A DNA stretch of 64,000 bases, from NCBI GenBank assembly GCA_022539475.1, contig VCMS01000012.1:1-64000 (forward strand). Direction: 5' to 3'. The position numbers were made by a program, and so were the translations under genes. This document shows, one piece after another, positions 7,548-46,265 of the stretch (within the stretch, counting starts at the first letter, position 1; every line of letters starts with the position of its first letter). The notes under the pieces were generated by a model. The model ran no database searches, had not been told where the DNA came from, and saw only the letters and a list, made by a program, of their open reading frames with translations. The DNA comes from Gracilaria domingensis. Taxonomy: Eukaryota; Rhodophyta; Florideophyceae; Gracilariales; Gracilariaceae.

Positions 7548-7548
7548 G

Positions 7549-7581: not shown

Positions 7582-7609
7582 GGAGTGCGTATTTGTTCTA
7601 CCGATACAG

Positions 7610-7674: not shown

Positions 7675-7680
7675 GATATG

Positions 7681-15310: not shown

Positions 15311-16201
15311 AGTAGTTTTGCAGGTTGAAGGGTGGGAAAATTGGAGATGCAGACGGCGGAGCTCCCCTTCGGTGTAGGGGCTGGTAGCAGTGTGGAGAAT
15401 GCTAGAGGGAGACGAGATATCCCAGACGATAAAAAGATGACCGTTGAGTTTTTGAAGGTGGATAATCCAGTCAGCAGTGCCAGATTCGAGCTGCTGGAGC
15501 TTCGTGTCTAAGATAAGGTGGTGTCGGGCACCAATATCTAGCCCAAGTAGGAAAGGCACAGCGGCGTCGACGCTGTCGATGTGGAGGGCAAGAGAGGAGC
15601 CATCGGGAAGCAGAATTTGAACAGAAAAGGTACCGAGGGAGTGGTGTATGGCATTCGCGGACTTGAACGACTCATGTGAGGATTCTAAAACGGAGTGGAG
15701 ATCGCTGTTCGGTTGTTGGGTCTCATGGAGAACGATGGCTTGGGGGAGCCCAACCACGGATTTGGCGTCGCCAGAATCGATGCAGGCACAGAGGAAGGGT
15801 TGTTGCTGGGTGGCGATGTGAACGCTGGCCGTGAGCAAGGTCTCCCAAATAACGACAGATTTGGCCGCAGTATGGGAATAATGCGTGGCGTCGATGGTTT
15901 GGAAATTGGCAGTGCGAAAGACAGCAGTTGTGTCTTGATGAAGTGAAGGCTGTGTGTGTGGTGGTATGTTGGTACCGTCGGGCCGAATAGATGGTGCCGG
16001 AGGGGCCAAAAATGCGATCGCACGCAGAGGCACTCTAGATATGACGCAAGGGGTGGCAGCGGGGAGAGAAGGGTGCGAAGGTTTGGGGGCAATATCATCG
16101 AGTCGCGCGGTAGTGTGAGTGTCGAGCGCAGAAGAGATGGTGATGTTGGGCGGGGGAGTGAGGACATTTCGCCTTGGGTTGGAGACGAGTCGGCGGGTCA
16201 A
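15311..16201 (-). mobile_element. copia protease and pre-integrase region
   Basis: A protease-like active-site segment FLCACIDSGDAKSVVG is followed by a flap-like LLPDGSSLALHIDSVDA and PFLLGLDI. After it comes a pre-integrase-like stretch (LRRLHLQFSHPS). Confidence 0.75.
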
Positions 16202-16209
16202 TTCTCCTT

Positions 16210-18409: not shown

Positions 18410-18432
18410 TTAACGAAAAGAGGTCAATCGAT

Positions 18433-18731
18433 TGATGGTCTACTATTGCTCTGCGGTAGGCAGCAGGGATGCGGTTTGTAAGGTTAGGAAAACATATTCA
18501 AAATCATGGGGAGACCTCTTTACTGATGTAGGAGTCCCTAGCTACTGAAGCACCCTGGGGACCGATTCCCAGTACCGGGTTATCGCGAAGGTTCTCAGGG
18601 GGTTATCGACTCCTGTCGGTTTCGGCCTAGAACTGGATGTAGGCTGGAGTTCGTAGCGATATGCGACAGCCGGGTGCGCTGCATGCAAACTCGCTGGCAT
18701 CAAGAGCGTGCTTGGCTCTCGCTGAGATTCA
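18433..18731 (-). repeat. copia 5' LTR
   Basis: The partner of the left copy, followed by the second gcagc target duplication at 18732-18736. Confidence 0.93.
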
Positions 18732-20150
18732 GCAGCCTGCATCACACGCTCTGGCGTCCATTTGGCCAGCAGCTGACGCAACAGCGCAACCAACTCCTGT
18801 TCACCGTCGATAAGCGTCCCGTGCATGTCGTGTACCACGCGCTGAGCAGCAGCGCGCTCAGTGGCAGCCACTCGCAGCCACAGAACGCAATGCGCTTGCG
18901 CTCACGCTCACCGCCCCCGCGCGCGCGCACTCCAGCTGCGCAGGCAGCCCTGCCCACATGGTCTGCATCTTCAGCACGTACTTGTTCACGTACGTAAAGT
19001 CTCGCGCCGCTTCAAGCATACGCTGAAGTAGCGGTCGCCGTCGCAGCCGCCGTTGCGGCCGCCGCCGTCGCCGTTGCAGCCGCCGTCGCCGCCGCAACCG
19101 TAACCGTGGCCGCCGCCGAGGCCGAAGGCGCCGTTGCCATCGCAGCCCGAGCGCGTCGCCTCCTTCTTTTCATTCTTTGCGCGGCGTGTCCGCGCGCATT
19201 GGCGCGGCGCGCCGCATCTACAAATACAGCACCTCGTTGCCGCCTGCGCGCCGCTCGCGTTTCCACCGCTTCCGCCCGACTCTTGCGCCTCTTTTGGGGG
19301 GGCTGGGTTGTGATGAGCGAGTGCTACGACCGGTTGGGACGTAGCTCGAACGACATGAGTGGGCTTTTATAGACATGATGACATCGGATCGATTGTGGCA
19401 ATATCTCGCATTTCAGATGAAGAAAGAATCGGCCAGAGCAGAGGAAGGCGAAACGTTCAAAAATGTGCTCGAAATGATGCGTTGTGACGCGAACCACAAC
19501 CGAGTGGAGCGGTGGCGCTGGGGACATGCTCCGGTGCGGCGGGGAACCGTGAAATGTTGAATCTCGTCGCGGGACGGGACTCATAGGCACGCGAGCTGCG
19601 CAAGGAGAGGCAATGAATGCGATATGAATGAATTTAGCGCGCGGAGGCGGTTGGCGCGCCTTGTTCGATTTTTGCGGCACTGGTGTGGCGGCGCCGTATG
19701 CGTTGCTGGCGTTCCACGCGCGTCTCAGAGCCGCTGCGCGCACAAGGAGCGCGCGAATATGGCTTGGGGAATGACGGGCTCGCGGCGGGTGTACGAGACA
19801 ACGGTGCAGCTGTGGAACCTCGTAACTGCCGCAGTTGTGTGGGTGAGGGCGCGGGGTGCGACAGAGAGGGGGGCGCAGCGGATTTGTCGGCGAGCGCGGC
19901 TTGTATTGTATAGCACTGAAGGTAAGAGACGCAGCAGGCGCGAACAAACGGGTAGCGACGCTGGTGAGTGGCGGCGTGACGAGGGAGAGCAGAGGGTAGG
20001 GCGAGAAAGGCTGGCGGCGAGGCTTCTGTGCGCGGCGAATTGGATATACGCGGCGCGCGCGAACGGCGAGCGCTCGCGACGACTCATCGACGCGCTCAAA
20101 CTCGTCAGCGCGGCAGCCAACTGAAAACGCCATTTTGGTGATGGCGTCGG
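18732..20150 (-). other. GC-rich segment continuing the interrupted host locus
   Basis: Minus-strand frames open here include one running through VVHDMHGTLIDGEQELVALL up to the target duplication, and another with ARDFTYVNKYVLKMQTMW. A (GCC/GTC)n trinucleotide-like tract at 19030-19110 would encode an Arg- or Ala-rich run. A long minus ORF at 19324-20349 is open probably because of high GC. I read this as the upstream part, perhaps with promoter, of the GC-rich locus whose other half is 10654-11574. No function can be given. Confidence 0.4.
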
Positions 20151-20399
20151 CGGTTACAGCCAAAGGAGGCAAAAACGATAAAAATGAAGTTTGCTCTCGT
20201 AGAGTACCAGTCCAATTGGACGAAGAAGCACTAGTCAAATATAAACTTACAGAGATATAATGCGGCAGAAGACAAGCAAACAGAACACGAACACAAAAAC
20301 AGGGAAGGAATACCAAACGATAGACAAAAAGATAAAGAAGAACAAACAAAGGTAATATATGTAATGAGATATGAATGGAAGTGTGTCAGAACTTGACAA

Positions 20400-23110
20400 T
20401 GAAAAGAGAGACCTGTGCTCTAAAAGATAGTAGTATTGCTCTTCTTTCTTCCTCGTTGATGACATGGCCAAGCAGTTTGATACGGGGCTGTGCGAAATCA
20501 CATTTGGATATTTTTATCTTCAGACTATGACTTGCAAGGATCTCGAGCACCCTGGTTAGGTCGTACAAATGTTCTTCCAGGCTTCTCGAGAAGATAACAA
20601 CGTCGTCTATATAGACGCGAGCAAACTCTACCCCATGAAGGACCGCGTTTATCATCCTTTGAAACGTGGCTGGGGCATTCATGAGACCAAAAGGTATGAC
20701 TTCAAACTGGAAGGTTCCCTGACGACAAACAAAAGTCGTCATTTCTTTGCAGTCATGGGCCATGCGCACCTGCCCGTATCCGGAGAAAAGGTCTAGGGTC
20801 ATGAAGAACGAACAACCACCCAAATCGGCAAAGATTTGTTCCATGTTTGGTAGGGGCCACCTGTCAGGCGTCGTGACCTGGTTCAGAGCTCGATAGTCGA
20901 CACAAAACCGGGGCTTTCCATCCTTCGTATATGCGATGACAACTGGGAAGGACCATGTAGAAGTAGACGGCTTGATAATCCCGGCGAACAACATTTTGTC
21001 AACCTCTTTCCGAACAACTTCGTCATGCTTTGGGGGTAGCCTTCGGACCTTTGAATGAATTGGGGTCTCGACACTCAGGTCAAACCTGTGCGTTCCCGGT
21101 ACGTCAGAGGGCCTAGGATCGTATAAGGACCACGCTATGACATCCAAGTTATCTAGGACAGCAAGGAGGTCCTCTTGTCCACCTTTCGGGAGGTGGGAGA
21201 TCCGTTCTCGGATCACCTCCTCCTTGTCGGTGTCGGGGGGGTAATCACGTCGGTCGAGTCGGTCGAGTGTGCGACCAAGTGAATCTTTCGCAATTACGTC
21301 TTGCAGAGAATACTCAATGTCCTGCGCTGTGCACGTAGGCTCAGCCACAACTCCTTCGTCACGGCTTGGGTCGTCCGGTTGTTCCCCATCTACTGGGGTT
21401 TGGGTGCTACTTTCTTCCGGAGATAGTTCTTCTTCAAATGCTATGACATAACCGCCGGAGTCATCGTCCTCCAGTATTCCTACACGTTTGAGCGTTAGAT
21501 TCTGTGCCTCTAGATGAGGGGGATGCACGGGTGACGGTACTGGATGTCGCAGTTGAACCCGCACGTCCAAGAAGTCAATAACCCACTCGCCTTCGGCTAA
21601 AGGAAGCAGAACTACTTCGTCTCTGATCGGGATAGTAAGGACAGGGTCGCGGTAGAGTGGTGAGCCAATGAGGTCTTCTTCCTCTGGTGAGGAGTCATCC
21701 TCATCGTTACTACCGTCTGGGAACTCCGCCGGGCTCTCACCTACGGGCCCACCGTCAGGAGACCGGACTTCACTGTCCTCGCTGGCCTTATTAGCCCTGG
21801 GTGCAATACTTGTAGGAATCACGACATTCACATCTTCTGGCTGTACGCTGGTATCCGGAGACTCGCTCTGGAAGGAGGAGGGATTGGGTCCGGACCTTTC
21901 TTCGATAGGGGGATCTGCCTGCACTTCTTCCTCCGCGTCTTCGAATCGTCGATCTTCGTCATCATCGTACTGGGAGATCAGCTGGAGTTGCTGACGCGGT
22001 GCTGGCCCGACTGCCACCCTTTCTACCTCTGGAGGAATCCGTGGGCCATCGGATCCGGCAATATGCACATCATTGGTATGAAGATTCTCCCCAAGCTCCG
22101 CGGTCAAACTATCCAGATGAATCTGAGTCCCGATGTACGCCAGGTGAGGTTAGGGCCGTTGGAATCTTCATCATGAGTCGGTCGAGGGGCTTGGACAGAT
22201 ACTTGGGGTCCTTCGGACGGTCCGGCTCGGGTGAGTTGCGGTGTCACATCGGCGGGTTCTTCCTGACCCTCGTTCTCCTCTTCGCCATCCTGGGATCCTG
22301 CTTCTCCATCTCTTTCCATTACTGCCACCAAGGTCACTTCGCCGCCACCAGAGGTTCGCTGCTTTGGAAGAGGGAGGTTAGCAAAGTCCTCCGACTCGTC
22401 TTCCGGATCAGACGAGATAGGATCAGAGTCTGACGTGAAATCTTCGCTATCGGTCTCAGACAACGGGACAAATGCTTCTAATCCGGAACGATCGGAGTCG
22501 AGTCCTATAAGGACGTGCTTCTTGTTGTAACTCATGGTGACTTCTTGCGTGCCAAGATCGATACAGGCATACAGCTTTTCCAGCGTAAGATTCCGGATGA
22601 TTACATTGAAGGGGGGTTTTTCGATAACAAGGAACTCGAGGCCTACTCGGAGGTCATCGAACCTTACAGGAACGCCCTCTAGAGTACCACCCATGCGGGC
22701 AACATTACCATCAGCCACTTTACTTGTCCTCTCCGTGGGGTTTGGAGTCAGTAGCAAATGGTGTGCTAGCTCTGCTGATATTACATTCGGGACAGCGCCC
22801 GAGTCCAAAAGGGCTTGGGCCATTGTCCCATATACTGTAATAGGCAAAACCCTAAGACGAGATTTTTCACGCTCGACCTGGGTAGCATTGACCTTTCTGG
22901 TCGTCGAACGGCCAGAGATGATTCGACGCAAATCTTTCTTGGCCGTATTGGCGTCCCCGCGAATGAGTTGACCGAATGTGAGCCCAGTCAGGGCATTCGC
23001 GAGCTCCTCCATCACTCTTTACTTTCCATTGTGCTCTTGGAGCATTGACTCACCAGAGAGCTTCTTTGTGGAGGTCTTCTTAGGCTTTCCAGACCGATTA
23101 CGCGGAGCTG
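20400..23110 (-). mobile_element. Ty3/gypsy fragment (gag end, protease, RT)
   Basis: Minus strand. Right to left: a short gag-like Lys-rich end, a retropepsin with ALLDSGAVPNVIS, a long acidic linker, and a gypsy RT with RFCVDYRALNQVT, MTLDLFSGYGQV, IPFGLMNAPATFQRMIN and the VYIDDVVIFS active site. The sequence ends abruptly after the RT near 20450. RNase H, integrase and LTRs are absent, so it is a truncated fossil. It abuts the truncated HAD homologue. Confidence 0.9.
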
Positions 23111-23138
23111 AGCGAATCAAGCGAAATAGAGTGTCACT

Positions 23139-23951
23139 AGCTGAAGAGACTTGGCGGAAATTTCACCCAACACCTTGTCTAAGTTCATACATGCCAATGG
23201 TTACGGTATATTAAGTTCCGTTGATGGAACGTTGAGAAGAGAAGGAGAGTCAATTCCAGAAGACGTTTTGAAGTGTATGAAGTTCATTGACGAACGTGTT
23301 GGTTTCGGACTTGTCACAGAGGGTGATGTGGGCAACGTGGAGGGGAAAATGAAAGGACTCGGAGACTACAACTTTGGTGTGTCGGCGAATCATGGTGCTT
23401 TCCTCCATTTCTCTGACGAGAGAGAAAGTAAGGCTACATTCAATGATCAGACCCTTGACCACACTGTTGGAGGACTACTGTTCCTGGCAAGGGATTTGAA
23501 TAGGAGGCATGGTATTGTAAATGATGATGAGAAGGGGTTCGTGGAGACCAGAAGTGATAGTGGCCTTCCCAATTTCGTGTACAACAAACTGTGGCAGTGG
23601 AGAGAAGAAGTGGATTCTGCTATTGGGGACCTGTTGCAGGAGATAGATGCGTTTGTTATCTATCCCGGCCATAAAAGTTGCGAGATTGTGGACAAGCGAT
23701 ACACAAAAAGAAGCGGAGGAGCAAATCTTGTAGATAATGAACCGAGATTTATTGATACGGATGACGTCGTGACGTTCAGAAGTGCTTTGAGCGACGGTCC
23801 TTTGCATAAGGTAGGTGTGTACGGCGTTTACGTAAAAGAAGAGGTGTATCCCGCGTGGAGTACAAAACCTGTTGGAAAGCGTGGAGGATGTACATTCGAC
23901 AATTATACTGGTCGCTCTGTTGTACGGCTACGAGGAAAAGCAGCACGATAA
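23139..23951 (+). pseudogene. HAD-superfamily phosphatase homologue, 5'-truncated, catalytic residues lost
   Basis: Clearly paralogous to the next gene: shared strings include DGTLRR, CMK(F/Y)I, RVGFG, DSGLPNF and SDGPL(H/Y). No ATG precedes the homologous region, and upstream sequence belongs to the gypsy fragment, so the 5' end is gone. In motif I the first catalytic Asp is replaced (SSVDGTL for SDIDGTL). In motif IV, FGNDSNDGP has become FRSALSDGP. The segment between motif III and IV is shorter than in the paralogue. The ~260-codon frame is otherwise open, so it could be young, or retained as a pseudo-enzyme. Its 3' end overlaps the end of the other copy on the opposite strand. Confidence 0.75.
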
Positions 23952-25146
23952 AACACACCAAAAATGGTAAGGGGGTATTGAGATATATACGATCCTTTTA
24001 TTACTGAGGTTCTAACTCCTAACAAACTATTAGAGACATCGTAGCACTTGAAACAAATTCCGGGAGCATTTCTAAACCATTGACACCTGCATTTTCTGTA
24101 TCCGTACAGTTCTTCCACTCTTCTGATGGTCTCATGCACGTCCTCTACCCCATCAGCAAGGTATGTTACGGCTGGTATAGGGTCGTCTCCCTTCATATGA
24201 ACTGCCAGGTTTTCCATTTCATATAGAGGACCATCATTGGAATCATTCCCGAAAGCAAGGATTAAATGTGTTTCGAACTGGCGGTCGTTTTCAACCAAGG
24301 CCAGCGCCCCACCCCTAGCAAAACCCGTTGTCATTGAATCATAATGAGGCGGTGAATGAAATTGATGCCTTTCAATAAAATGTAAGGGCATTTTCGAGGA
24401 ATTCAATTTTTTCAAAAAATCACACTCATAGAAATGTCATTGAAACAAGAACTTACTTATATTTCAATGACGTTGCTCATATTACCTTATTAAATCAGTC
24501 ATCTTGTCTGCAAGTCTACTGAAAACGCTTTTAGGTTTCCCTTAACGAGTTGTGCCTGGGCACTGTTTTTCGTGAAACGAATGTCCCCTATGTCACAGTT
24601 TTTATCTTGAGGGTACGCAGCCAAGCTTGGAAAGGATGTCAACACTTTTGTAATACCGGAGTTGACTTCTGGTTTCCGCTTCGACAGTCCATTGTACGTG
24701 AAGTTAGGGAGTCCACTGTCTTTTCTAGTGCTCACAACTGCTTCTTGACGCTCTTTGACAAGTCCATGCGATTCATTTAATGAGAGTGCAAGTCTCTCAA
24801 GTTCGGCTGCACATCTTTCGTAGCCTTCCCTGTCAAGATTTTGATCAATTTCAGTACCATTGGATAATCTCACCCGGGCACCTTGGTTTACAGAGATGCC
24901 AAAAGTGTAGCCACTCAGGTGCTCCATGAAACTCTCGACACCCTCTATACCCCGCCCAGTAGCAATTCCGAAACCAACGCGTGCATTGATGTACTTCATG
25001 CATTTGACTGTTTTGGCAGGAATGTTGTCCCCAGCTCTTCTCAGAGTACCGTCAATATCACTAATCACAGCGTAGCAATTTTCGACTATTTCGTTAGCTA
25101 GCTGCTGAGGAATTACTTTTTGGGCTCTAACTTCTGAGTTATACAT
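23903..25146 (-). CDS. HAD-superfamily phosphatase (Cof/HAD-IIB-like), two exons
   Basis: The first exon runs from an ATG at 25146 to near 24520. Motif I is AVISDIDGTLRR, followed by KYINARVGFGIATGRG (motif II region with its Thr/Gly) and a GISVNQGARVR strand. The second exon lies below ~24415 and has GFARGGALALVE and motif IV LAFGNDSNDGPLYE, then an AVHMKGDDPIPAVTYLADG segment typical of HAD-IIB caps and tails. The intron lies between about 24420 and 24520; a GTAGAC donor at 24519 fits the frame, and the acceptor was not decided. HAD-IIB enzymes dephosphorylate sugars and related small metabolites. The substrate cannot be told from the sequence. It is convergent with the truncated paralogue. 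Confidence 0.75.
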
Positions 25147-27725: not shown

Positions 27726-28599
27726 AACTACTTCTTCTTCTGAAGATCTCGAACGGATATGTGAAGGATGAGGAGCTGTTGGCGCTGTTGGAGGGGAAAA
27801 ACGTACCGCCGACGGCCTCACTAAGGCGGGATGAGGACATGATTACGGCGGCTGGTGGGATGTCGCAGAAGAAGGAAGTGACCGATGAAGGAAAGAAGTG
27901 TGAGACGAGGAAAGGGGATGGTGATGAGGTGGAGAAGGGGGTAGAATTGGAGGTGGAGGGGTGGCAATGGAGAGAAGGGGTGCGGTGCATTTGATTCAGT
28001 TAGAGGTTGGAGACCAGATGGAGAGTGGGGGCGGAGAGGGTCACTGGGAGATGCGGTTTGTGGGGGAGATGAAGACGAGGGTGGAGATGTTGGGGTTGGT
28101 GATGAAGGAGCGACTGGAAGATGACATTGTGGAGATTGTAACGGAAATGGGCGGTGTGGTGCTGAGTGGGGGTGGTAGTGGTGTTTCGGTTGAGGCGATT
28201 TTGAGCCTGCGGAATTCGTTGTCGGTATTGGAAGTGGAGATGAAGAATCATGTGTATGGGACAGTGAAGTGTGCGGTAAGGGAGGTTGGAGAGTTGCGGG
28301 AGGAGAATACGGTTCTGAACGAGAGGTTGGACATGCTGGAGAAGGAGGTGAAGGATCCGGGCAAGAGGCAAAGATTGGTGGAGGAGAAGACGGCTAAAGG
28401 AGGTGTGGAGGGAAAGATGGGAAAGGGAAGTGCGGGAAGGGTGGCGGTGCAGGAGGGGTCCACTGTGACACCGAAGACAAAGGATGGTGGGGTTAGGGAT
28501 GGGAAGAGCCGTCTGAAGAAGAGGCGTAAGGAGATGAAGAAGGGGCCGCGGGAGGGAGTCGGGGTTCCGGTGTTGACGGGGTTTAGGAGTGCGGCATAG
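27726..28599 (+). CDS. Hypothetical acidic/coiled-coil protein, two overlapping frames
   Basis: A 77-codon frame rich in Glu/Lys overlaps a 212-codon frame, beginning at an ATG at 27961, that has a convincing coiled coil (LREENTVLNERLDMLEKEVKD) and a basic tail (SRLKKRRKEMKK). Both are on the plus strand, and a short intron or frame change would join them. The sequence is strongly purine-biased on this strand, which keeps frames open by itself and lowers confidence. No family recognised; a retroelement gag-like role is possible but unsupported. Confidence 0.4.
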
Positions 28600-28970
28600 G
28601 TAGCGCGGACGGCGAAGGGGATTCTGAGGGGAGAGGGGGAGAGAAGGATGGGAGGGATGTGAAGCCGTTTTGGGGCGAGGCCAGTATATGAGAATGGGGA
28701 GAGTTGCCGACCTGACTTCTACAAAATGACGTTTGCGGAGACGGAGAGGGAGAATGCGAACGCGTGAGGGGCGGAAATTGGGTAAAGAGTAAGGGTGGAA
28801 TGGAATGGGAAGAATCGGTGGGATGATTGAGGTGGGATGAGTTGCGACTGGCATTGCAACATGGGAGAAAAGGGAAACGCAAACTATCACCAGCGCAGAT
28901 TTGAGAGAGGGTCGCGGAAAAGAGTGGATGGGGTGGTGCGGCGAAGTAGAACCTCTACAAAAACTAGGGG
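28600..28970. other. Purine-rich intergenic stretch
   Basis: Continues the G/A bias of the preceding ORF without an open frame on the plus strand. Leads into the right-hand gypsy fragment. Confidence 0.4.
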
Positions 28971-28972
28971 AC

Positions 28973-31900
28973 CTAAGAATGAAACTGCGCAAGATGGAAT
29001 TTAATATTCCAAAATTTCTTAATTTTTTTAGTGCCAGCCTCTGCCACCCCCTCGCGCGCCTCAAATAGCCCAAAAACTAGCTTAGTTTCCAAAGCGAACA
29101 GACAATATTCCACTTTGCAGAACACAGACGAATCTGCGTCATGGGCGGTATCTTTATCGCCCGTGATAACCGAACCTTTTCTGGAAACGCTACTCTTCGC
29201 CAGTGGAGGGCGACGTAGGTCGGCGTCGAGACCAGATTTGGAACCGATAATCGCCACTGGACGGGTGCGGTAGAAGGAAACCTTCCGGAGACCAGGGTAA
29301 ATTGCCTTCACGTATCCGTCGATGAAAGAGGTCCCAAGGAGACATTCGGCACCTATGGTAGGACAGAAAAGGAACCAAGTATGGACCCGAAGATCGCCAA
29401 TCTGTGTGCAGAGAGAAATGATTGCTTTAATATCCATTGGTCGTTTTGATGCATCAGTTATCCATGGACTCCTTCTAACCTTCACCTCGTGTTCTCAACC
29501 AGCCGGTCAAACCCTTAGATGGACCACGTTTGGCCCTGCTGTAGTGTTTAGGACGCTGGTAACGACCCGTGATCCTGAGGCAGTTAGACCAATGGTGTGT
29601 CTCACTTTGTAATTCTCGTTCCGTAGGACACGTATTGGAGAATCCGCTTCCCTGTCCAGTTCGTCACACCATAGTCCGAAACTTCTGTATTCCTTTGGTG
29701 GCATCGATGGTTGAGTATCTGGAGGCCTCTGAAACTCCATTGGACAAATTTCTTCACCTTCAGCGATAACGCTAGAATTCTGAGAGAGGCGGCGCGCCTC
29801 AAGCAGCTCCTCTATGCGGTTTCCGACTGAGCTTTTCCACCGGTGGTGTACGTGTGACCACTGGCCTGCACTTCTTCTGGAACATCCGTCCGGTGTTCTG
29901 AGGTGGCATCATCCACTGGATTCGAAATTGCAATAACTGTTAGAGCCTTCACTGGCATTTCCAATGGTGTGGAGTACCTCGACGTGCCAGCGGACGATGT
30001 ATGCCACGGAGCCTGACGGGTGAAAACTCCTTCGGATCGCCTTGCCTACGAGTTTTCGTTACTTAAGGTCATGAGTTTGTCCTTCGTTTCCTTCGGTAAA
30101 AACGTCATGCAATCGCATGGAGTAACCGTTGACCGGCAAATGTAGCAGGCGTGACGGGGGCGTTTGAAGACGTCTCTTTGAGGTTGGGTAGGAGAATACT
30201 TTGGTGTAGACTGTTCAGGAGGAGTTGTTATTCCCTTTGATGGTATGGAAGGCGCGCCTGAAGCAGCTGAACCAAAGGAAACTGCAAGAACGTTTCCGTC
30301 GTTCTCGTATAAACCGGAGGTACTGCTTTCCGAACTCTCAACCATATGGGCCTGGGAGATTTTCTGGACAGGTGTCGCTTTTTCTCTGGCGTCATTATCA
30401 GTTGACCGGCGGGAATTTCTATAGGTTTTGCCATAAACGTCGTCATAATTCACCAAATACCTGTAGGAGAGGTTGGAATGATCCGTATTGTGATTTCGAA
30501 CGTGCATCCTGATGGCAGGCAGCAATCCAGCGCTGAAGCGCTGCTTCAGTCGATTCTCGTAGAACAAATTCCCACACCTAAAGGCCTTTCTCCAAAGCTG
30601 GTCAGCGTAATCTTTCTCGGTTACGTTCGAACCTTGCCTGTAGGATATGCCTTCCTGATGGGCGTCCATAATGACTTCATCCTTCGCATATGTTCCAAAA
30701 TGTATTGCACAACCTCCGGATAGGACCTAGGGAGTTCCCGATCGGTTGCATCGACGGGATCCGTAGTTACAGAGATCTTAGAAACCACATGTTTGTACGC
30801 TTGCCCATGGAGGAAAAACTGAAAAAGATACAGAGCGGCACCCTCGTCGACGTCGTTCTGATCACAAGCCGTGCGGAACAGACTGAGAAACATAAGGATA
30901 GAAATGGAGTTCGATCCCGAAAACTTTTCCGTTATGGCTTGCTGCATCCGTTTGGCCCATCTGGAGACATTTTCGGCCACCGAGCTGGAGTATCGAGCTG
31001 ACCGATCGACCAGGTGATACGTGCGATAGTCCAATACTCTTTTTAAGAGTTCATTAGTTGTTACCAACGGTTTGAGGCGTCAAACAGCCGCCTCATCCGT
31101 CCCTGAGCCACTGGAATTCGACGAATCCGAATCGGACTCGCTACCACTGGAGTTCCTCTGACTCTTCCTCTGGTTCTTCGTCATCTTCCATATGATACTT
31201 CTCTTCTTCCTGCAGTCAGAACTTCTAGCTTCCAATGGCCCCTCTTGATCTTCAGCCTCCAAATCAATGGCTGCTCGGGGGCCCTGAACCTCGGTGTACC
31301 TTACGCGTGGCACGGTCATTAGGCCTTCTTGCCGAGCGACGTCTCTTTTGGCACCTGGATGTGCGCCCGATTGGTCTACCTGCGGTTGAACCCGGCGAGA
31401 GGCTGGCAAAGCAGCTACTACCGGTGGTTTGGAACGGGGTTGCCATACAGATACCAATGGATTACTTTGAATTACACCCACGGAGGGCGGCGGGCCTACC
31501 TGGCGACTCACCTCACTACGGATACCTAAGCCAAGCGAGTCCACGAAAGCGGCGGACTCGAGAACTTTTGGTAGGACACGTTCTGCCAGTTTTTCGGCGT
31601 GCTCAGCGAGAGTGACAGACACTCGGAGATCCACAAGGGTTTTGACTCGAGCGTGAAGCATCTCTCGAACCTTCGGCAATAAGACATCGGCAAGTCCATC
31701 GGTAATTACTGAACCAAGGGTGTCCTGCGGTTCTGCCTGTGGTGTGTTGAGTTGCGAGCGGAACTCGTCGAGCCGTTCTCGGAGTCTTCGGCCGAAGAAG
31801 CGTCACGATTAATCCTCTCGGGATTATCCACTGGTGTGAGGAGATTAACCTGTGGCTGCGAACAGGTACTCCGACGATCACTCACGTTGTCGCCAGAGGT

Positions 31901-34751: not shown

Positions 34752-34806
34752 AGGGTGGCAATCGAGTTGACCCTTCTTCGGTTCTCTCCAACCACCCACC
34801 ACCCAC

Positions 34807-35377
34807 TGTAGTATAGTTCGCGGGATCAACAGGGGCTCTACAAGACCCAGTGGTGACGTTTCGGGCCTCTGGGCCCGAGTGTCTACTGTACCACGTAGGA
34901 CGCTCAAGCAAAGGCATGGCAAGGACTAATTAGTTTATTTTCGTCAATTTAGAATTAATATTTACTAGGTAGTGTAGATCTGTGGCCGGGGTGGTGCACC
35001 ACAAATGCACCTCCCGGTGGCCCACGTGGCACTAGGTCCGTGAGAGCCGAAGGGGCGCTCGGGTGTACTAAACCCCCGAGACGGCAACCTCCCACACCAA
35101 ATGGTAAAGGCAAGCACCAACTAGGCTAATTTGACACCAGTTCGGTTCTACAGTCACCAATTGGTAAGTCTAGTAGTCTTCTAATAGTTTTGCTGACCTC
35201 GAGGGTTATACGTGCCTGCCGCACACCAGTGCAGGCGTATTTACCACTTGGTCTCCGTGCACCATAGGCAACGGCGGGTGCTGCCGACCTATTAGGTTTC
35301 ACGCGTTTCACTCCTCCGCAGGGTCGAGCCCACGCAGGGCTCCCCACTAGCAGCTCGCATCGATCGGTTATGCCACA
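34807..35377 (+). repeat. gypsy 5' LTR
   Basis: Begins TGTAGTATAG and ends TGCCACA. Contains three ACCANNTGGT sites (35096, 35156, 35243). Confidence 0.93.
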
Positions 35378-35510
35378 TATTTTGGTCTCCCGACTTAGAA
35401 TTTGTGGATTCCCAAGTGGTTTTTGGGAAGGGGGGATTTGGAAGTCAGGAGATACCTGAGTGGTTTGGTTCCCGTTTCCGAAGCAATTTGCTCCGACATC
35501 AGTTACCTAA

Positions 35511-37778
35511 ATGGAGAAACGAGGCGTGCGTCACCCGAAAAGGGCGCCGAGCGCTCCACCAAGTGGCCACCCCGTACGGGGTTCAGTGTCCTATCCGGTG
35601 TTGGATAACCCGGAAGACCTGATTCGGAAGGAACGCCCACCGAGGGAGAAGAAGGTAGACCGAGAGGCTGGGGGCCCCTCGACCCTTCCCCGGGCTGACC
35701 AAGTGGACGAAGGAGCAGGCTCCGCAATGGGGGAGCTCACTCCCTTAAAAACCCCAGTGGTAGACCAAATGGAGGTGCCAGTCAGGCCGCGACTGGACCT
35801 GGACGAGGTCACCCGAGTGGTAGTTGATCGAGCCTCCCAGGAGGTTCTCGACAAGGTACCCGTGGTGGTGTTACAGTACCTAGAGAACGAGGTACGAGGA
35901 CACATTGACCGATTGGTTATGCTGGCTCTGCAGCAGCAGGGGGCCAAGCTTCAACCTGAGATGGTGGCCCAGGCCGCGCTCATGAAGCAAGCCCGCCGGC
36001 CGGCAGTAGAAGCCACCAAACCACTTGGTATTCTCCATCCTACCCTTCCTACACCATCGATTGGTGAAGGATTTATCGACCGCATGGGGAAAGGGGCAGA
36101 GCCTCCGGACATGGAGGGCCCAAGGTACGTATACCTCCCCCAACCCACTGGTGTAGCTCCGTCAGGACCACGTGGTGGAGACCCTGATGGAGATTCGTCA
36201 AGCTCAGGAGACGAGCGTCGACGCAAACCAAATGGTAAGAAGAAGAAAACCAAAAGGGGAAAGAGAAAGAGTCGCCGGTCGGACTCGGACTCTTCGTCCT
36301 CAGACACCGATTCGGATTCGTCAGAAGACGACGACCGTAAAGGGTCACGATGCAAGAGGAAGGACTCTCGCCAGAAGAAAGGGAAGAATGCCTGCAAGGG
36401 TAAGACCGAAAGGTACAATGACTCGGACTCAACTTCCGACGAAGAGACTAACCTATAGGTGCTTACACCGCTCAACGATTTATTCACCAAAGCGGTTGAC
36501 TATCGTACCTATAGGTTGGAGAACAGACAGGCTGAGTATACCAAAGAGGTAGCTCAGAAGATAAAGAAGCATCATAGGAAGCTTCGTTTCCAACTGGGTG
36601 AGACTCGCTTTAGCGGGGATGACCCTATTGCGATCATTGACTTCCTTCAGAGGTTCAAGATCGCTTGTGACCAGAATGGGTTTTCAGAGGCAGCAGCCAT
36701 GTGGTTGTTTCAATTCTACCTAACTGGTCAAGCTGGAGCGTTGCTCCATAGCCGCCTCCAAGGGAACACCATGGCGGTGGACGAAGACCAAACGGAAATG
36801 TTGACGACATACCCACAGGTGGTCAACTTCCTACTGGAAACCTATGCAACCGATGAGGTTTTTCAGGAGGCGTACGCAGAGTTGCTTGCGTACCGCCAGC
36901 GCGCGGGACAAACCGAATTGGAATTCGCTCGCTTCCTATGGGCATTAGCCCCCCGCTGTGGAAGCGTCTTTACTACCAAAAGGTTGAAATCGATGTACGC
37001 CGACAACGTGGCGAAGTCTATCCGATCACCGGTTCGCAACTACCTAGCTACCAACCGCACGGTCGACTACAACGCACTAGCCCGCCATGCACAGGGATTA
37101 GGCAACACCGCTCGGTCAGGGGCCAGGAGAGACTCCGCACCACTTGGCAAACCATTGAAAGAGAAAGGAAAAACCAGGCGGTCAGTGTTTGACGTAGAGG
37201 AAGAGGAGAACACTACGGATGAGGCATCTACACAATACGCCTCCCAGGGTCACCCAGTCCACTTGGTGCATGCACAACCGACAACTCGATCGCACGGTAA
37301 CACCTCTTGGTCCAGCTCGCTATCCAACGAGCCCCCCTCGAGGCAAACCTCAGCTCCACTATCACAGGTATCCGTACCGGTCAGCCCGGTCCTAGCGGTG
37401 CCATTCAACCAATATGGTGATAGAGGACCACCCCCACAGCAACGGGGTGCAGTACCTACGGGAGGCCGTCCCCCATCGCGCGCGTCGTCGCTCGCGATGA
37501 AGGACCCCACAACCGGTAATCTCCTCTGTTGGTTCCGTTTGTCGCCTCACCACTTGGCAACAGCGTGCCCGAGCGTGGCTCCGCAGAACAGGAACGCTCT
37601 CCTCACTGCTCGCCAGCAGAACCACCAGGATATATTTGGGCCCACGACGCGGAGCGCAGGCACGGGACACGCAAATGCGCCACCCAACGCAGCCACTCCT
37701 CATCAGGTACACATCATTACGGAGCAGGGCCAAACGGTTCCCGCCCCGCAGGCGGAAAACGCCGAACAGTTGGGATAG
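35511..37778 (+). mobile_element. gypsy gag region
   Basis: An N-terminal charged part ends in a Lys/Arg/Ser/Asp tract (serine-aspartate repeats such as SDSDSSSSDTDSDSS). A helical capsid-like domain follows (YRTYRLENRQAEYTKEV, DFLQRFKIACDQNGF, LFQFYLTGQAGALL, ELEFARFLWALAPRC), then a Pro/Gln-rich tail. It matches the gag of the minus-strand fragment. The two halves are carried by adjacent frames. Confidence 0.85.
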
Positions 37779-37799
37779 AGGCCTTCCCCAACTGTCCGA

Positions 37800-40700
37800 A
37801 GACGGAAGGCCTTCCAGAACCAAGTGGTGCAAGTATGGACAATTACCCATTGGTTACAGGGGAGGAGAGCCTCATGGACGGCACCGAACTGATATGCTTT
37901 CTCAAGCATAGTAACCATAAGGTAAACGTCACCCTCGGGTTTACTTCCAACCACTTGGTACCATGCGTCACTGTCCTGGACACCGGGGCAGGACCTAATC
38001 TGGTGAATGCCAAACTACTAACTAACAGACAATTGAACAAGCTTCAGCCATGTACATTAACAAACCCACTGGTTGACGCCAATAACAGACCACTAACCGT
38101 CATGGGAGCGCTTACCATAATGGTATTGATTGACACCATGAAGGTCCGAGTTCGCTTCATAGTCGTTAACCAACTGGCAACAGACTGTATCCTTGGAACA
38201 ACCTTTATAGACCAGCACGTCAGGGCAATTTTCCCACGCTCTAAGACAGTTCTGGTCAACAATGGCCCCCGGATCGCCATTATTGGTAACCACAAGGGTG
38301 CCTCTCCGAAAGAGAACAGCACTCGACACCAACCGGTACCAGAAAATACACTCTCCAACAAGGTGCGACTGGCGAAGGCGGTAATAATACCGCCTATGAA
38401 CCACTTGGTAGTGAAGGTGACATGCCAACAGCCTGGCCTGTTATCTATTCAGAACCATTCACGGTTGGCCGAACGACATATGACCTTAATGGCGAATGGT
38501 ATAGTCAACAACATACCGACAAAACCGTTTCAGGTCTACCTGAGTAACTTCAGCAACCGCCCGGTCAAGTTGCCAAAGCACACCGTAATTGGTCTTGCCC
38601 CACCGGCTCCCCGTACGATCTTTACGATCACACCACAATGGTCCCACGAGGTCGTGGACGCTAGGAAGGGGGGGGGGCAGTGCCAATTCGTCGAATTCGA
38701 AGTCGTCGCGAACAGACCATATGGTGCAGCGACTAGCTGAGCGAGAAGACCAGAAACTAAAGCTAGACCCAGTGACCAATTGGAAGACGGAGGTGAATAT
38801 AGAACTTGAAGGGGAATAGCTCAGAGCTCGGATCCTCGGACTCTTGGAGCCATTCAGTACCATGTGGTCTGGCAAGCTGAGAGCCATTAAGGCCACCCAG
38901 CATAGGATTGACCTCAAACCGGACTCCCGTTCCATCCACCAACAGCCATACCGCGCGGGACATAAGGTACGTGAGGTAGAGCTGGAGGAGGTGGAGCGGA
39001 TGCTCCGTGAGGGGGTTATAGAACCGGCAAACTCGGAATGGGCTAGCCCTGTAGTGCTAGTCCAAAAACGAGGGGAGACCCGTATGAGGTTCTGTATTGA
39101 CTACAGAAAACTGAATGCCGTAACGGGGAGGGACTCGTATCCCATCCCGAGGATGGACGAATGCATCGACTCCCTAGGAGATGCAAACATCTTTACCACA
39201 CTGGACGCGAACTGCGGATATTGGCAGATCGAAATACCAGAGGGCGACCGTGATAAGACTGCGTTTACATGCCATGCAGGCCTGTATCGCTTCTTACGCA
39301 TGCCGTTTCGTTTACGAAACGACCCCGCTACCTTCCAAAGGGCATTAGACATTATATTGTCTAAAGTGAAGTGGACAACCGCATTGGTATATATCGATGA
39401 TGTAGTCATCTACTCAAGATCCATTGAGGAGCACTTCTCGCATGTCCAGGTGGTATTGCAGTTGCTACAGGAGGCAGGCGTAACTCTCAAACTACGAAAG
39501 TGTATGTTCTTCAACCAAGAGGTAGAGTACCTAGGGCATACAATAAGCCCCGGGAAACTCGAAGTGACCAAACGAAATATCAGAGCGGTACAGGAAGCGA
39601 AGCTCCCTACGTCACAGACGGACATACGATCCTTTATAGGTCTATGCAACGTCTACCGACGGTTCATCAAGGGGTTTGCAAAGATAGCCGCACTCCTGAA
39701 CCGGAGGTTGCAGAAGGGGCAGCCTACACACTTTGACCACTTGGAAGAAGACGAGGTAGAGGCTTTCTATATACTTAAAGCAGCGCTTCTCTCCCCACCG
39801 GTACTGGCATTGCCCAAAACGGGACTCCCGTACACACTGGATACAGATGCATCGGACGCCCAAATAGGTTGCTGCCTAATGCAGGAACAGGAAGACGGCA
39901 AACTCGCACCAATTGGGTATTGGGGTAGAGCTCTTAACCAAGCGGAGCAGAACTACACCGTAACGGAGAAGTAATGCCTAGCAGTTGTCTGGAGTATGCT
40001 CATGCTACGTCCTTACCTATATGGTGTGCGCTTCACGCTTCGAACGGATCACGACTCGTTGAGGTGGACATTAGGTTTGGCGGACGCATCGGATCGTCTG
40101 GCCCGATGGCGCCTGAGACTTTCGGAATTTGAGTATGATGTGCAGTACCGCCCTGGGGTCAAGCACCGAGTGACGGATGCAATATCTCGGTTGAATACCG
40201 AAGGATTGGACACTGACACAGTGGACGACGACATTCCATGTTTTACTATAGAACCTGCGAACCACGAGGTCAATGAAGTTCTGAAGGGATATTGGCATGA
40301 TGACAGTACGTACCAAGTGGTAGTGGAGACCCTCCTCCCTGTGGAGGAAGAGAAACACGCCCCAATCACCCGTGAGGAATTCCTACGCGAACAATCGTCC
40401 GATAGGCTGTGCAAGACGCTCGCTGACGTACTAGAAAGGAAGGATTCTCAGTTCGACGTTGACCACAATGGGTACCTCATCAGACGCTCACCTTTAGACG
40501 GAGCTCTCCAGAAGGTCGTACCTGAGTCATTAAGACAAACGGTGTTGTATCTGTCACACAACCCACGGCTTTCGGGACACCCGGGAGCCACGCGGCTGTA
40601 CTATACCCTTCGGAGGCAATTATACTGGCCGCACATGGCGAACGACGTATATACCTATGTGGCGCAGTGCAATTCGTGTATTAAGACCGGAGGTGGCGTG

Positions 40701-42071
40701 AGGAAGCACAGGAAGTACCTGAAGCTATTCCCGGCGGCGGGGCCCCTGGAATTCGTCGCGATCGATATACTGGGGCCCCTGCCTAAGACCTCGGAGGGTT
40801 ATCGCTTTGTAGTCGTCATAACCGACAGGTTCACAAAGCTAACCAGGGCTATACCTCTGAAGAACCAGACGGCAACGACACTAGCGACAGCCTTCTTGGA
40901 GAATTGGGTCTACCCATACGGTGCTCCCATGTACCTACTGACCGATAATGGTTCGAACTTAGCTTCTAAGCTCTTCGAGGCGGTTTGTACCATGCTAGGG
41001 GTCAAGCACTACTTTACCACGGCGTATCATCCGCAAACCAACGGCCAAGTGGAACGGTTCAATAAGACCCTGGTGGCTCGCTTACGGCACTATGTCGAAG
41101 AGCACCAAACCACATGGTCTGAGTATGTCCAGCCATTGACATACGCGTACAATCTCCAGGTCCACAGAGTCACTCAAACAACCCCGTTTGACCTGGTACT
41201 GTCGCGAACACCACACAGTATTATCGTCCAGCCTGGACCTGACCGCTCGGAAGCGTCCGGGACACTGACACCTGCGAAGGTGAAGAGAAACATACTCCAG
41301 AAGTTGCGCGCCGCTTTGGCTGCTGCCAAAGTTAAAATGACAGCAGCCCAAGAACGGTACAAAGCAGACTATGACCGAACGGTGAGCAGAGTGATCAAAG
41401 CGGTAGCAGGAGACATGGTCTTCCTTGACGTGCCACCAAAAGGTAAGCGACCAACCCCAGCGGAAACGGAAGAAGATATACGCCTCGAGGAGGATATCAA
41501 TTCCAAACTGCTACCCAAGTCGACGGGACCATACAAGGTAATTCGCTCCGATGAGCATACCGCTACGGTCATAATGGATGGTTTGGAGAATACGGTCTCC
41601 ATTGACAGGATTGTCAAGGCCGCACAAACGACGGCATCGAATACACAACCAATAGGTGAGCCAACTCAGCAAGAAGCGGAGAGGGAGCAAACGTCGCCCA
41701 CACCCCTTCCTCTAACAAGTCGACCGAGCGGTCAACCTTCCATCAGAGCCGTAACGGCTGACCCCACGACCCAAGCGGAACAGGAGATCGAGCCCCGGCA
41801 AGACCAACGGGTCACACCACCCATGGAGAGCCACGCACCACACGACCAAACGAAAGAGTCACCCCCTCGAGTAGATACTCAGGAGTGCGCTATTGACACC
41901 ATTGTAGGTCACGAACACACCACAAAGGGTATCCGCTACAGGGTAAGATGGTACGGATGGTCGCCAGAACACGACTCTATGGAACCACCTGGTCACATCC
42001 CTAACAACTTCATCATCCGATACTGGCGCAAACAAGGGCGTACGCCCCCACCAACTGGTACGCGTCGCTAA
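37800..42071 (+). mobile_element. gypsy pol region: protease, RT, RNase H, integrase, chromodomain
   Basis: In order: retropepsin VTVLDTGAGPNLV; RT with RFCIDYRKLNAVTGR, TTLDANCGYWQIEI and the ALVYIDDVVIYS active site; RNase H with YTLDTDASDAQIGCCL; integrase with an HHCC-like N terminus (HPGATRLYYTLRRQLYWP, CNSCIKTGG), the core VAIDILGPLP and TAYHPQTNGQVERFNKTL; and a C-terminal chromodomain (HEHTTKGIRYRVRWYGW). Chromodomains on gypsy integrases direct insertion to modified chromatin in known chromoviruses. Spread over adjacent frames. Confidence 0.92.
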
Positions 42072-42179
42072 GGAGGGGGGGGGGTGTCTAAGCCGTTGAA
42101 CGCCAAACGTCACATGGAATGCTAACTAACCTAACAGGCAAATAGAGAGAGATCATAACGTACAACGCAAGACAGTTTA

Positions 42180-45100
42180 TTAGTCGAGAAGAATCCACAA
42201 GAGCCAACCACGAGGTAAACTAGGAGACCTTGGAAGACCCACGGCCGCGTCTGCGTCCACGACTGGTTCCACGACCGCGACCACGTTCACGGGAGGTCCC
42301 GCGCGACGAAGCGGAACCTCCACTACCAGAGGAAACCGACATAGGTCCGGCGGAGCTTCCGCCCCGCCGCCAGCCGCGCTCGCTGGGGCCCCACCACTTG
42401 GTAGGGGAGCAGAAGCAACAGGCACCGCAGGGATACCGCTGCTAACCACCGGCATGGTATTCGCAGGACCAGTGGGTGGATGGAAGGAAGGAGGTAAGCT
42501 AGTCGGAGGGATACCACTAGAGGTCGGAGGAGCGAGACCACTAGACGGCCCTGCACCAGGGGTCAGACCAGAAGGTGCTCCAACTCCCGAAGGTCCAGAA
42601 CTAGTAGGCAGCATAGGAACACCGGACGACGACGGAAGCGGGACCGAACGGAAACCAGTTGAGAAACCACTTGGTGCTCCTGCCCCAGTACTTCCTGGAG
42701 GAAGAGGAACGTTGTGAGGACCAAGCAGAGTATGGAAGGACGCCGAAGGATCACCACCAAGAGGTTGATACCTACCAAGGCCACCAAAGCCTACCATTGG
42801 GGTCGCAGGATGCTGCGACGCAGGAGCGTACGGGTTGAAACTTTCCACAGGGGGGCGATGTAACGGCGCGTGGCCTTCCAAAAGGTTGCTCAACTGACCA
42901 ACATAGGCCGTCACCTCACGGTAGAGATTGCGCTGGAAGTAGTCGCGGAACTGTCGCAGCTCAGAAGTGCGCCGCTAATGGTGAGCAACCACGGGGAGCA
43001 AGTTGGTAAGAGTATCCACAGCGGTGAGGATGTCATTGGGACCAGGACGGTTGAAGTGCACCATCGAGGCGTGGTTAAGACGAGCCAGGGCGCTTCGTAT
43101 GTCGCCACTATCACCACCAAGGGGTACCGGGTTCACCGGAAGCGACTGGAAACCAACCCGAAGAGGCCCCTGAGCGGCCCGTCCGGGAGGATGAGCAGCT
43201 GCCTGAGGGTCTTTTAGACAACTTGGGACAGGCGCAGCCACGCTGGTCGGAGGAGTGGCCTGTACGGGCGCCGAAGGAGGCAACGCGGGGGACTCATAGT
43301 TCTCGGCAGCCACCATAACGGTATCGTCGTTACCAAATGGGTCTTCGCCAGCCATGTGCTGCTGTTGGAGAGGCACGATGCTATGAACCTCCGGGTCGTA
43401 GACATCCCAACCCTCTTCAGGCCCCCAACTGTGGTTACTTACCGCCGTAAGGTAGCTGTCCAACTGCTGCGCCGTATACTTGGTGCCCTCCACGATTTTG
43501 AAGAGCCCCATGGCACGAATGTCACCGACCACATCGTTGGGAATGTTGAAGATGCGACCAACTGGTTGAGTTTCGCTGATCCCAACAGACTTGTCAGGGC
43601 AGCGCGTGTCCCAAGTTACACCTTCCACGGACGCTTGAAGAGCGAGGATAGCCACCATAACGGCCCACTCGCTGCGCGCGACCGACCAAACGGCATATGC
43701 GTTGTTCCTGTCGAGGGAGATGCTACTACCAAAGTACGCAAGTACCGGCGGGGTCGGCACTTCCACCCACTGACATACTTCAAAGTGGTCCCACCAAGAA
43801 GGTCGATTGACATACCATGCCCGGCGGTTCTGGTCGCTTTGTGACCAATACTCGACGTTGTGGAACAGGAAAATTGTCCGCGTACAGTTGTTACGGTGAC
43901 GAACAGGGCTCTCGGCCATCGCGTCGGTCGCCCACCTCCCACGGTCAGTCCAATAGTTGGTCTCTAAAGGGCGCTCGAACGCGACGTAATCCAGATCGAC
44001 CTCGATATGGGTAGCAGGTTCGTCCAAGCGGTGAAGGATATCGACCAAACGGCGAAAGTAGTGGACCTCCCCATCGCAGCGGATGAAGGGGAGATCCGAC
44101 GGTATGGCCACGGGGATATAGTACAGGAACTTCGTGTGCCGCTCCCGCGCGTGGAAACACTGTTGTCGACCGAACCGGCTCTGCTTCTCGCCCTTGCGTG
44201 GTGGGGGAGGCTCCATAGGCACCGCCTCCAAGCGGCGACAATCCCAACGGGCAATCGTAATATACTGCGGGAGACCCATGTGGCGAAACCGCAAGGGACA
44301 GAAGGAGAAACTGATGTGGAAAGGCCAGTTCCCCAGAGCGACCAATTCGGCAGAGACATCGGCAAATCGTGCACCATAGTGGGCATGCGGCTGCTGCCCG
44401 TGCGTCCTGTTAAGGTCATGAGGATTCAGCTGTTGAGCTTCCACCGTACCGGCGACCGCAAGAGGATTGACGTTGCTCGGACCGGCGGCGGCCGCATAAG
44501 GATCATACCCACCGCGACCGTACGGATCTTGACGAGCGCGTGTACTCGACCGCGTGTTGGGTTTGAAGATGCCCCGGCCACGGCCGCGTGCTACCCCAGG
44601 GGTCTTGCCGGATATCCTCGACCGGGCGACAGCGGTTTCGCGGACCGCGGGTGGCCTCCGGTGAGGGGGGAACTTCAGAAGCAGAACATCCCTTTATAGG
44701 GCCGTAGCGCCGCTCCTCCAGTACCAATTGGTTGGCCACCACGGGGGCCTCAGCGCCCGAGGGAACGGACACGGGTGTACCGGCCTGGCATGGCAGACAG
44801 AGCTGCGAAGAATCAACCGAGTAGTAACTCGACTGAAACGGCGCTGTCTCCTCCCCGTGGCCTACCATACCGGAAGGGGCGGGAGCGATACTCTCTTCAG
44901 CTCCGTCTTCGCGGCGTTCGAACGTCATTGACCACCCCGTTGGGGAAGCTGGTCGTTCACCCATGGGGTATGAAAGGAGCGGGGTGGAGCGAGAGCGCGC
45001 CACGGAGGATACCAACAGCGAGGGAGAACCCCACCAATTGGACGAATAGACGAGGCCGGAAGGGTCATGGAGAACGGGCACGCGGCTCCAGCGAGCTGAT

Positions 45101-45252
45101 ACACCGTCCGAATAACCAGTTTGGTGCCCTGGCTGGGCGGGTTCCGTGGGTAGATGATGCCACAACCACCCCAGAAGGAGCCCAAGGGATGAAAAACGAC
45201 CACCAGGAACCAAGCGGAGGATCACTAAACGCCGCGCAGTCGTGTAAACCAC
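42180..45252 (-). CDS. Antisense ORF block inside the gypsy element (249, 489 and 244 codons)
   Basis: Three long minus-strand frames follow each other between the integrase end and the 3' LTR: 45252-44503, 44444-42975 and 42914-42180. The middle one looks globular, with many Trp/Tyr/Phe (ARFADVSAELVALGNWPF, RPSWWDHFEVCQWVEV, GEEGW-like loops). The last is Pro/Gly/Ser-rich and the first is Arg/Ser/Pro-rich. They may be exons of one antisense gene. Extra antisense ORFs at this site are known in some plant gypsy lineages. No family recognised. Because high GC favours chance frames, only the 489-codon one is well supported. Confidence 0.55.
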
Positions 45253-45695
45253 TCGGCTCGGCTCGTACCAACCCAGAACCCCACCGACGTGGGGGCTCTA
45301 GACCAACTGGTAAGCCGGGACTAACCCGCCCAGGGGAAGGACGAGTAGGGGAAGATGAAGTGGCGGGCTCCTCCAAGGGGGACGGAAGAGACGAAGACTA
45401 CCACGTGGTGCCAGGCGCGCGACAAGATCAACCGGAATGGTCGCGTCTCGCGGTGTCGCGCCCCAATACCACGAGGGATGCAAGGTACGATCGCACATAC
45501 CGCAGGGGAAGTACTGCGGCGCGGGTAATAGCACTGCAGTGCAGGTGGCGAACCGCCGTGCACCGCGCCGTCTTCACGCCCTCGCGAGACGCGCCGTGCA
45601 CCAGGCGATGCGCGCCGACGACCGTTTGTTGAAAGGCGGCAAGCGCCGTGGGAACTTCACAGCCACGGGGCGTGCCTGTCAGTAGGAGGGGGGTC

Positions 45696-46265
45696 TGTAG
45701 TATAGTTCGCGGGATCAACGGGGGCTCTACAAGACCCAGTGGTGACGTTTCGGGCCTCTGAGCCCGAGTGTCTACTGTACTACGTGAGACGCTCAAGCAA
45801 AGGCAAGGCAAGGATTAATTAGTTTATTTTCGTCAATTTAGAATTAATATTTACTAGGTAGTGTAGATCTGTGGCCGGGGTGGTGCACCACAAATGCACC
45901 TCCCGGTGGCCCACGTGGCACTAGGTCCGTGAGAGCCGGAGGGGCGCTCGGGTGTACTAAACCCCCAAGACGGCAACCTCCCACACCAAATGGTAAAGGC
46001 AAGCACCAACTAGGCTAATTTGACACCAGTTCGGTTCTACAGTCACCAATTGGTAAGTCTAGTAGTCCTCTAATAGTTTTGCTGACCTCAGGGGTTATAC
46101 GTGCCTGCCGCACACCGTGAAGGCGTATTTGTCACTTGGTCTCCGTGCACCATAGGCAACGGCGGTTGCTGCCGATTTATTAGGTTTCACGCGTTTCACT
46201 CCTCCGCAGGGTCGAGCCCACGCAGGGCTCCCCACTAGCAGCTCGCACCGATCTGATTTATCACA
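45696..46265 (+). repeat. gypsy 3' LTR
   Basis: Preceded by the purine tract aggagggggg. The third palindrome site of the left LTR is changed to TCACTTGGT here. Confidence 0.93.

Follow-up and report, generated by a model that had tools for sequence, protein, structure and literature searches.

A long terminal repeat (LTR) retrotransposon of the red alga Gracilaria domingensis carries the gapped palindrome ACCANNTGGT 23 times, spread over its LTRs, its sense genes and a gene on the opposite strand. The element lies in a 64,000-base stretch of contig VCMS01000012.1 (C12:1-64000, hereafter the window), which was analysed together with the 77.9 Mb genome. The palindromes exceed what null models of sequence and codon use produce, they stand in unrelated flanks, they are retained above background in the 3' part of related copies, and the antisense gene is constrained at the protein level. 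Judged from these patterns, the palindromes very probably form a selected DNA-binding array; the explanation as a whole, in which this array would be read by the antisense protein and would keep the copies active, I put at slightly less than an even chance.

The palindrome is in excess within one element

A scan of the window reproduced the 23 exact copies of ACCANNTGGT counted in the initial annotation, all of them within 34807-46265, and found none in the remaining 52,541 bases. Two of the 23 are duplicates in the second LTR, leaving 21 independent places per one-LTR element of 10,889 bases. The expectation of about 0.2 sites given in the same annotation is correct at equal base use, and Markov nulls of order 1, 2 and 3 gave means of 0.24, 0.56 and 0.99 with maxima of 2, 5 and 5 (200 simulations each). 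The product of the half-site frequencies predicted 0.96 sites against the 21 places observed (Poisson P 3.6e-21); together, these nulls rule out chance, base composition and oligonucleotide composition as the cause. Among the 1,376,256 possible words made of four letters, a gap and four letters, ACCANNTGGT ranked first in over-representation, the ranking being limited to words seen at least four times. The related word ACCGNNCGGT occurred at five sites (expected 0.35 in 35001-45000). An origin of ACCANNTGGT by CpG decay of ACCGNNCGGT was not supported, as the observed/expected ratio of CpG lay between 0.84 and 1.18 along the window and between 0.96 and 1.04 in ten copies. CpG protection near the sites, a possible footprint of hypomethylation, showed no clear trend with distance.

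Fifteen of the 21 places lie inside open reading frames (ORFs), where codon phases 0, 1 and 2 are all used. Shuffling synonymous codons gave a mean of 1.9 sites in the ORFs and a maximum of 7 in 2000 shuffles, against the 15 observed, which rules out protein sequence as the cause of the array, bears out what had been proposed from the differing phases, and leaves the count well above expectation after correction for codon use and composition. Taken singly, five of the seven ORF segments exceeded their shuffles at P <=0.0065, the reverse transcriptase segment did not (P 0.31), and one segment had no site. Flanks of different sites were identical at a rate of 0.258, compared with 0.256 for random positions; since the flanks are unrelated, the array is neither a repeat unit nor a series of duplicated units, and a duplicated or tandem unit is ruled out as its cause. 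As a separate observation, further gapped palindromes were in excess in window 1-10000 and 15001-25000, namely CCGC-N2-GCGG (6 against 0.11 expected) and GCGC-N11-GCGC (8 against 0.44).

Sites with one mismatch, also mentioned in the initial annotation, numbered 36, against null means of 8.45 and 9.57. In 35 of these 36 the core CC-N4-GG was intact and the mismatch fell on the outer or inner A/T, whereas the core was intact in 382 of 626 one-mismatch words from Markov sequences (P 1e-6 against 35/36) and in 16 of 31 in the rest of the window. The two middle bases, read inward, favoured A or C in 32 of the 42 half-sites (A 17, C 15, T 6, G 4; P 0.0009). The mismatches and the middle bases together give the symmetrised motif ACCAMKTGGT, in which the CC-N4-GG core is almost invariant, a pattern that suggests degenerate sites of a single dimeric protein. 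A strict E-box of the basic helix-loop-helix (bHLH) type, CANNTG with a fixed middle dinucleotide, was considered and rejected because the middle bases vary.

Sites are shared, retained and turned over among family copies

Across the genome there were 4164 copies of ACCANNTGGT against 1620 of the reversed word, a total not sorted by element. On contig C1, 11 scattered copies were found in 789,604 bases, where about 16 would be expected from the rate of the reversed word. The palindrome is strongly enriched in one transposable element family, and in the DNA outside it for which a count was possible, namely the rest of the window and C1, it stands at background. Searching with the antisense protein yielded 91 family matches including fragments (87 of 1032 candidates scored), with identities down to 55%. 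The comparison took in 38 distinct copies of the 3' 4.4 kb, counting that of the window, and one further stretch, L066; representatives diverge from the window copy by 4.5-32%.

The 38 copies carried a mean of 8.29 exact sites (range 3-10) against 0.24 of the reversed word, and nine places were each common to 26-37 copies. The site at 42050..42059 was present in all 33 copies aligned there, those at 42666..42675 and 43557..43566 in 37 of 38, that at 42393..42402 in 34 of 38, that at 44723..44732 in 35 of 38, that at 45400..45409 in 35 of 36, and those at 41984..41993 and 45302..45311 in 33 of 37 each. L066 (83% identity, 17% diverged) kept the four window sites that fall within its stretch (42050, 42393, 42666 and 43557) and had a fifth at 44010, which it shared with L065 and which the other copies shown did not have. 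L065, the most diverged copy at ~32%, matched one window site in full (42666) and two others with a single mismatch each (42393 and 43557), and had exact sites elsewhere at 44010 and at 45734, the latter common to the L011 group. Place 44816 held an exact site in 26 of 38 copies, with ACCGCGTGGT in its stead in L006-L010. Because some sites are limited to certain lineages (44816, 45734, 44010) and others are shared with L065 and L066, the array must predate these splits and turn over. The copy on contig C4, among the sites listed, had a counterpart to every one of the 12 window places between 40312 and 46054, together with three additional sites; nine of the 12 matches lie in stretch L013, and the other three are assigned by approximate position and spacing.

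Retention was tested on 13 lineages with one representative each, against region-matched controls that were CpG-free in the reference copy. In the fast-changing region the sites were retained at 0.77 against 0.37 for controls (5 sites, P 0.0008), and in the antisense coding region at 0.89 against 0.53 (3 sites, P 0.004). Rotating the reference through all 13 lineages for both regions gave P <0.05 in 25 of 26 comparisons, which are not independent of each other. From L005 to L066, coding sites were kept in 3 of 3 cases against 0.21 for controls (P 0.009), and the fast region kept 1 of 1 (P 0.47). For the window copy, a first comparison that ignored CpG had given 0.80 at the sites and 0.49 at controls, and a first parsimony count had given 5.22 changes per 8 positions at the sites against 7.37 over all comparison segments (P 0.08). 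Half-sites outside the palindromes changed no differently (P 0.33). For one-mismatch sites, seven of eight comparisons gave P 0.02-0.50, and one gave P <0.0001 resting on a single site. The retention is moderate evidence, and the excess within the element is strong evidence.

Two observations on other copies may be added. The repeat at window 28580-29130 also adjoins a family copy on contig C121 (L007, 91% identity). In a copy at C91:147547-156211, two LTR sites stand 8.6 kb rather than 10.9 kb apart and the integrase zinc-finger match is ~2.25 kb closer to the 3' LTR; perhaps the antisense gene is missing there.

The antisense gene is constrained

The antisense gene occupies approximately 42250..44615 on the minus strand, as delimited by frame, composition and the bias of changes towards third positions. 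Changes among copies fell mainly on every third base, clearly so from ~44615 to 42675 and less markedly from there to 42375, with 1.02, 0.18 and 0.46 changes per position for the three codon places at 43725-43874; upstream of 44625 the bias was absent. This bias means that the gene is under constraint at the protein level. The window copy is broken, lacking the presumed start and having an in-frame stop at 42975-42977, and open frames exist in intact copies elsewhere in the genome. One intact copy has 791 codons from the presumed start and encodes a protein with an isoelectric point of 9.5, a basic RG-rich beginning and abundant RG repeats at its end. Over 793 amino acids the protein had no Pfam match at E up to 10, a 488-residue part alone had one weak Pfam match below the cut-off (E 0.66), and no PDB match fell below E 1. 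Searching viral contigs with the protein returned 46 pattern matches, none of which was a relative.

Anatomy of the element and its surroundings

Self-alignment placed the LTRs at 34806..35365 and 45695..46253 (both plus strand, 96.4% identical), the outer ends 34807 and 46265 with TG...CA of the initial annotation being possible. Between them, on the plus strand, lie two gag-like ORFs named by position (35511..36458 and 36459..37778, neither with a Pfam match) and a protease-like ORF at 37529..38740 with a weak match below cut-off (PF13975, 16.8 bits). Then follow the reverse transcriptase and the start of RNase H at 38844..39974 (PF00078, E 2.7e-29) and, at 39996..42071, the end of RNase H, an integrase (H2C2, PF17921; rve, PF00665) and a C-terminal chromodomain (PF00385, 26.5 bits, cut-off 25.1). 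The pol reading is interrupted between these last two ORFs in the window copy. The Pfam domains above cut-off stand in the order reverse transcriptase, RNase H, integrase and chromodomain, an order by which the element is of the Ty3/gypsy chromodomain type.

The sites, which are exact and, being palindromic, strandless, agree in position with the earlier statement that LTRs, sense genes and antisense gene all contain them. The 5' LTR has three (35096..35105, 35156..35165 and 35243..35252), of which the first two recur in the 3' LTR at 45985..45994 and 46045..46054 and the third is altered in the 3' LTR of the window copy. Others follow at 36020..36029, 36167..36176, 36227..36236, 37819..37828, 37950..37959, 38400..38409, 38716..38725 and 38859..38868, and then at 40312..40321 and 41109..41118, where the C4 copy has a site at approximately the same place; the remaining eight are those given above with their copy counts. 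The places are denser in the LTR and the non-coding stretch upstream of the antisense gene, which hold 6 of the 21 in 1.6 of 10.9 kb.

Elsewhere in the window, 19324-24203 is a second stretch with a minus-strand reverse transcriptase (PF00078 in 20386-22107), and window 23145-24203 has a counterpart of 92% identity in locus L001 on contig C1. The genome also gave 11 matches to chlorophyll-binding proteins and 14 to phycobilisome linkers, markers that point to a photosynthetic eukaryote and, more closely, to a red alga; four of the linker matches are on contig C680, which is probably the plastid genome.

Discussion

The explanation I favour is that the palindromes are a target-site array of a sequence-specific protein that would bind DNA as a dimer and recognise (A)CC(A)N2(T)GG(T), and that the array, spanning LTRs, sense genes and antisense gene, would be kept by selection on the retrotransposon lineage. 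Its most likely reader would be the element's own antisense-encoded protein, because this gene is the sole addition to gag and pol, is constrained and basic in its product, and because the motif is at background outside the family in the DNA counted; taken by itself, this assignment comes close to an even chance without reaching it. Many contacts would allow the protein to distinguish copies of its own element from other genomic DNA and to maintain their activity, the outcome being self-recognition, anti-silencing or auto-regulation. That the array spans the whole body of the element suggests self-recognition rather than a promoter, and an effect resembling anti-silencing is a tentative proposal that I regard as somewhat unlikely. 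Of the self-marking array proposed in the initial annotation, the array itself has held up, being dense in the family, unexplained by composition, codons or duplication, and subject to both retention and turnover among divergent copies, and the self-marking stays conditional; likewise, the antisense ORF it named as a candidate reader has proved to be a real gene under protein constraint and may be that reader.

Several observations weigh against this explanation. From L005 to the oldest copy, L065, retention was not above control (P 0.29 and 1.0), and parsimony changes at the sites, while below controls in four classes, were mostly not significantly so (P 0.06, 0.17, 0.32 and 0.05). In the first parsimony count, segments that held no CpG in any copy showed no difference (4.96 changes, P 0.63); that control is biased in that it favours unchanged segments, for which reason it was replaced by the reference-based one. 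At the LTR site 35156, the middle bases were unchanged in all of the first 100 listed of 217 genome matches and the site was exact in 90, so that the spacer is kept at least as well as the eight letters and selection on those letters gains no support there. The comparison across many copies covers nine places in the 3' 4.5 kb, and all families read carry the antisense gene, a sample that does not tie array and reader together. Searches of Pfam and PDB recognised no DNA-binding domain in the antisense protein, and its AlphaFold model, with a pLDDT of 30.7, is unusable. Binding, dimerisation, the identity of the reader and an effect on chromatin are inferred.

A reader supplied by the host would account equally well for the excess and the retention of the array. 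In that case a transcription factor or chromatin protein, for instance of the bHLH type (CANNTG lies inside the palindrome) or another dimer, would use the sites as a body-wide enhancer of the element's transcription, and the greater density of places in the LTR and upstream of the antisense gene would agree with such a role. Against it stand the background frequency of the motif outside the family (none in the rest of the window, and 11 sites on C1 where about 16 would be expected), the location of most places in ORFs, and the variable middle bases; at typical bHLH sites the middle bases do not vary in this way. This possibility is somewhat unlikely. A role at the RNA level, with the palindrome serving dimerisation, packaging or Gag binding in genomic RNA, would suit sites that run along the whole element, but a hairpin cannot close over a two-base loop, and 20 or more dimer contacts exceed those of known dimerisation signals; it appears very improbable.

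Type II methylases recognise palindromes, and ACCANNTGGT could accordingly be the recognition site of an N6-adenine or N4-cytosine DNA methyltransferase and the array a methylation mark on self. The genome offers many such enzymes, with 150 matches to PF01555 in the 150 scored of 328 candidates, an expansion that is striking for a eukaryote, and an exon-by-exon genome search gave no match to the C5 methylase domain PF00145. One PF01555 match lies in the window, where the plus-strand ORF at 2719-3951 combines a SET domain with the end of an N6_N4_Mtase domain. Yet no DNA methylase domain was found in the eight ORFs of the element that were searched, nothing links these enzymes to ACCANNTGGT, and many of them probably belong to other mobile elements, judging by their copy number; such a mark is improbable. 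It is scarcely credible that selection played no part and that a compositional or inherited oddity of the founding element was spread by amplification. The copies are indeed not independent, parsimony changes at the sites are not clearly fewer, and the LTR site 35156 is kept no better than its spacer. Codon and Markov nulls, however, fail to produce the array, the mismatches preserve the core, and sites at 44816, 45734 and 44010 occur in some lineages only; moreover, amplification cannot be the source of 21 independent places with unrelated flanks in one element, and the strict form of this proposal is refuted by the within-element statistics.

The initial annotation drew a parallel to the VANDAL elements of Arabidopsis, which are DNA transposons. 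In VANDAL21 and VANDAL6, with their anti-silencing proteins VANC21 and VANC6, a short motif (YAGTATTAY; AGTTGTCC/AC) is highly enriched in one family and rare in others, occurs many times per copy, is bound by the element-encoded protein, and is gained and lost between related copies; most of the motifs lie in non-coding DNA, as tandem repeats that share one orientation (Hosaka et al. 2017, PMC5735166). The parallel holds in its logic, with many short motifs enriched in one family and subject to gain and loss, and fails in the anatomy: the present element is an LTR retrotransposon with reverse transcriptase, RNase H and integrase rather than a Mutator-like DNA transposon, its motif is a palindrome located mostly in ORFs, without tandem repeats or orientation, and its antisense protein has no Pfam match, a remote relation to VANC being possible. 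The element is not a member of the VANDAL/VANC system. With no C5 methylase match, PF01555 matches in every candidate scored and no depletion of CpG, a VANC-like system based on 5-methylcytosine is unlikely in detail.

Other known systems share single features. Chromodomain elements of the Ty3/gypsy group (chromoviruses) have the same LTRs, reverse transcriptase, RNase H, H2C2/rve integrase and C-terminal chromodomain, whereas the present element has in addition the palindrome array and an antisense gene some 790 codons long; no chromovirus is known to carry such an array. TnpA of CACTA elements is an element-encoded protein that reads many short motifs of its own and can relieve methylation. 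This reading of own motifs is alike, but the arrays of those DNA transposons lie near their ends and the one described here runs over a whole retroelement. Antisense genes occur in plant LTR retrotransposons, likewise as an antisense frame in the 3' part, and none is known to have a linked palindrome array.

It is conceivable, though on balance doubtful, that an LTR retrotransposon encodes in antisense a new kind of DNA-binding protein for a palindrome written 20 or more times into its own coding and non-coding DNA, as a means of self-recognition or anti-silencing independent of VANC. Were this so, the protein-coding DNA of an element could double as a code of binding sites that the element itself has written, and the system might counter a form of silencing other than 5-methylcytosine, given the lack of a C5 methylase match and the many N6/N4 genes. 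One protein and one ten-base palindrome make a directly testable pair, and perhaps a chromatin tool with sequence specificity. Should the element's own protein be the reader of the array, this would represent a second, independent solution to self-recognition by transposons, in a retroelement and in a lineage distant from land plants.

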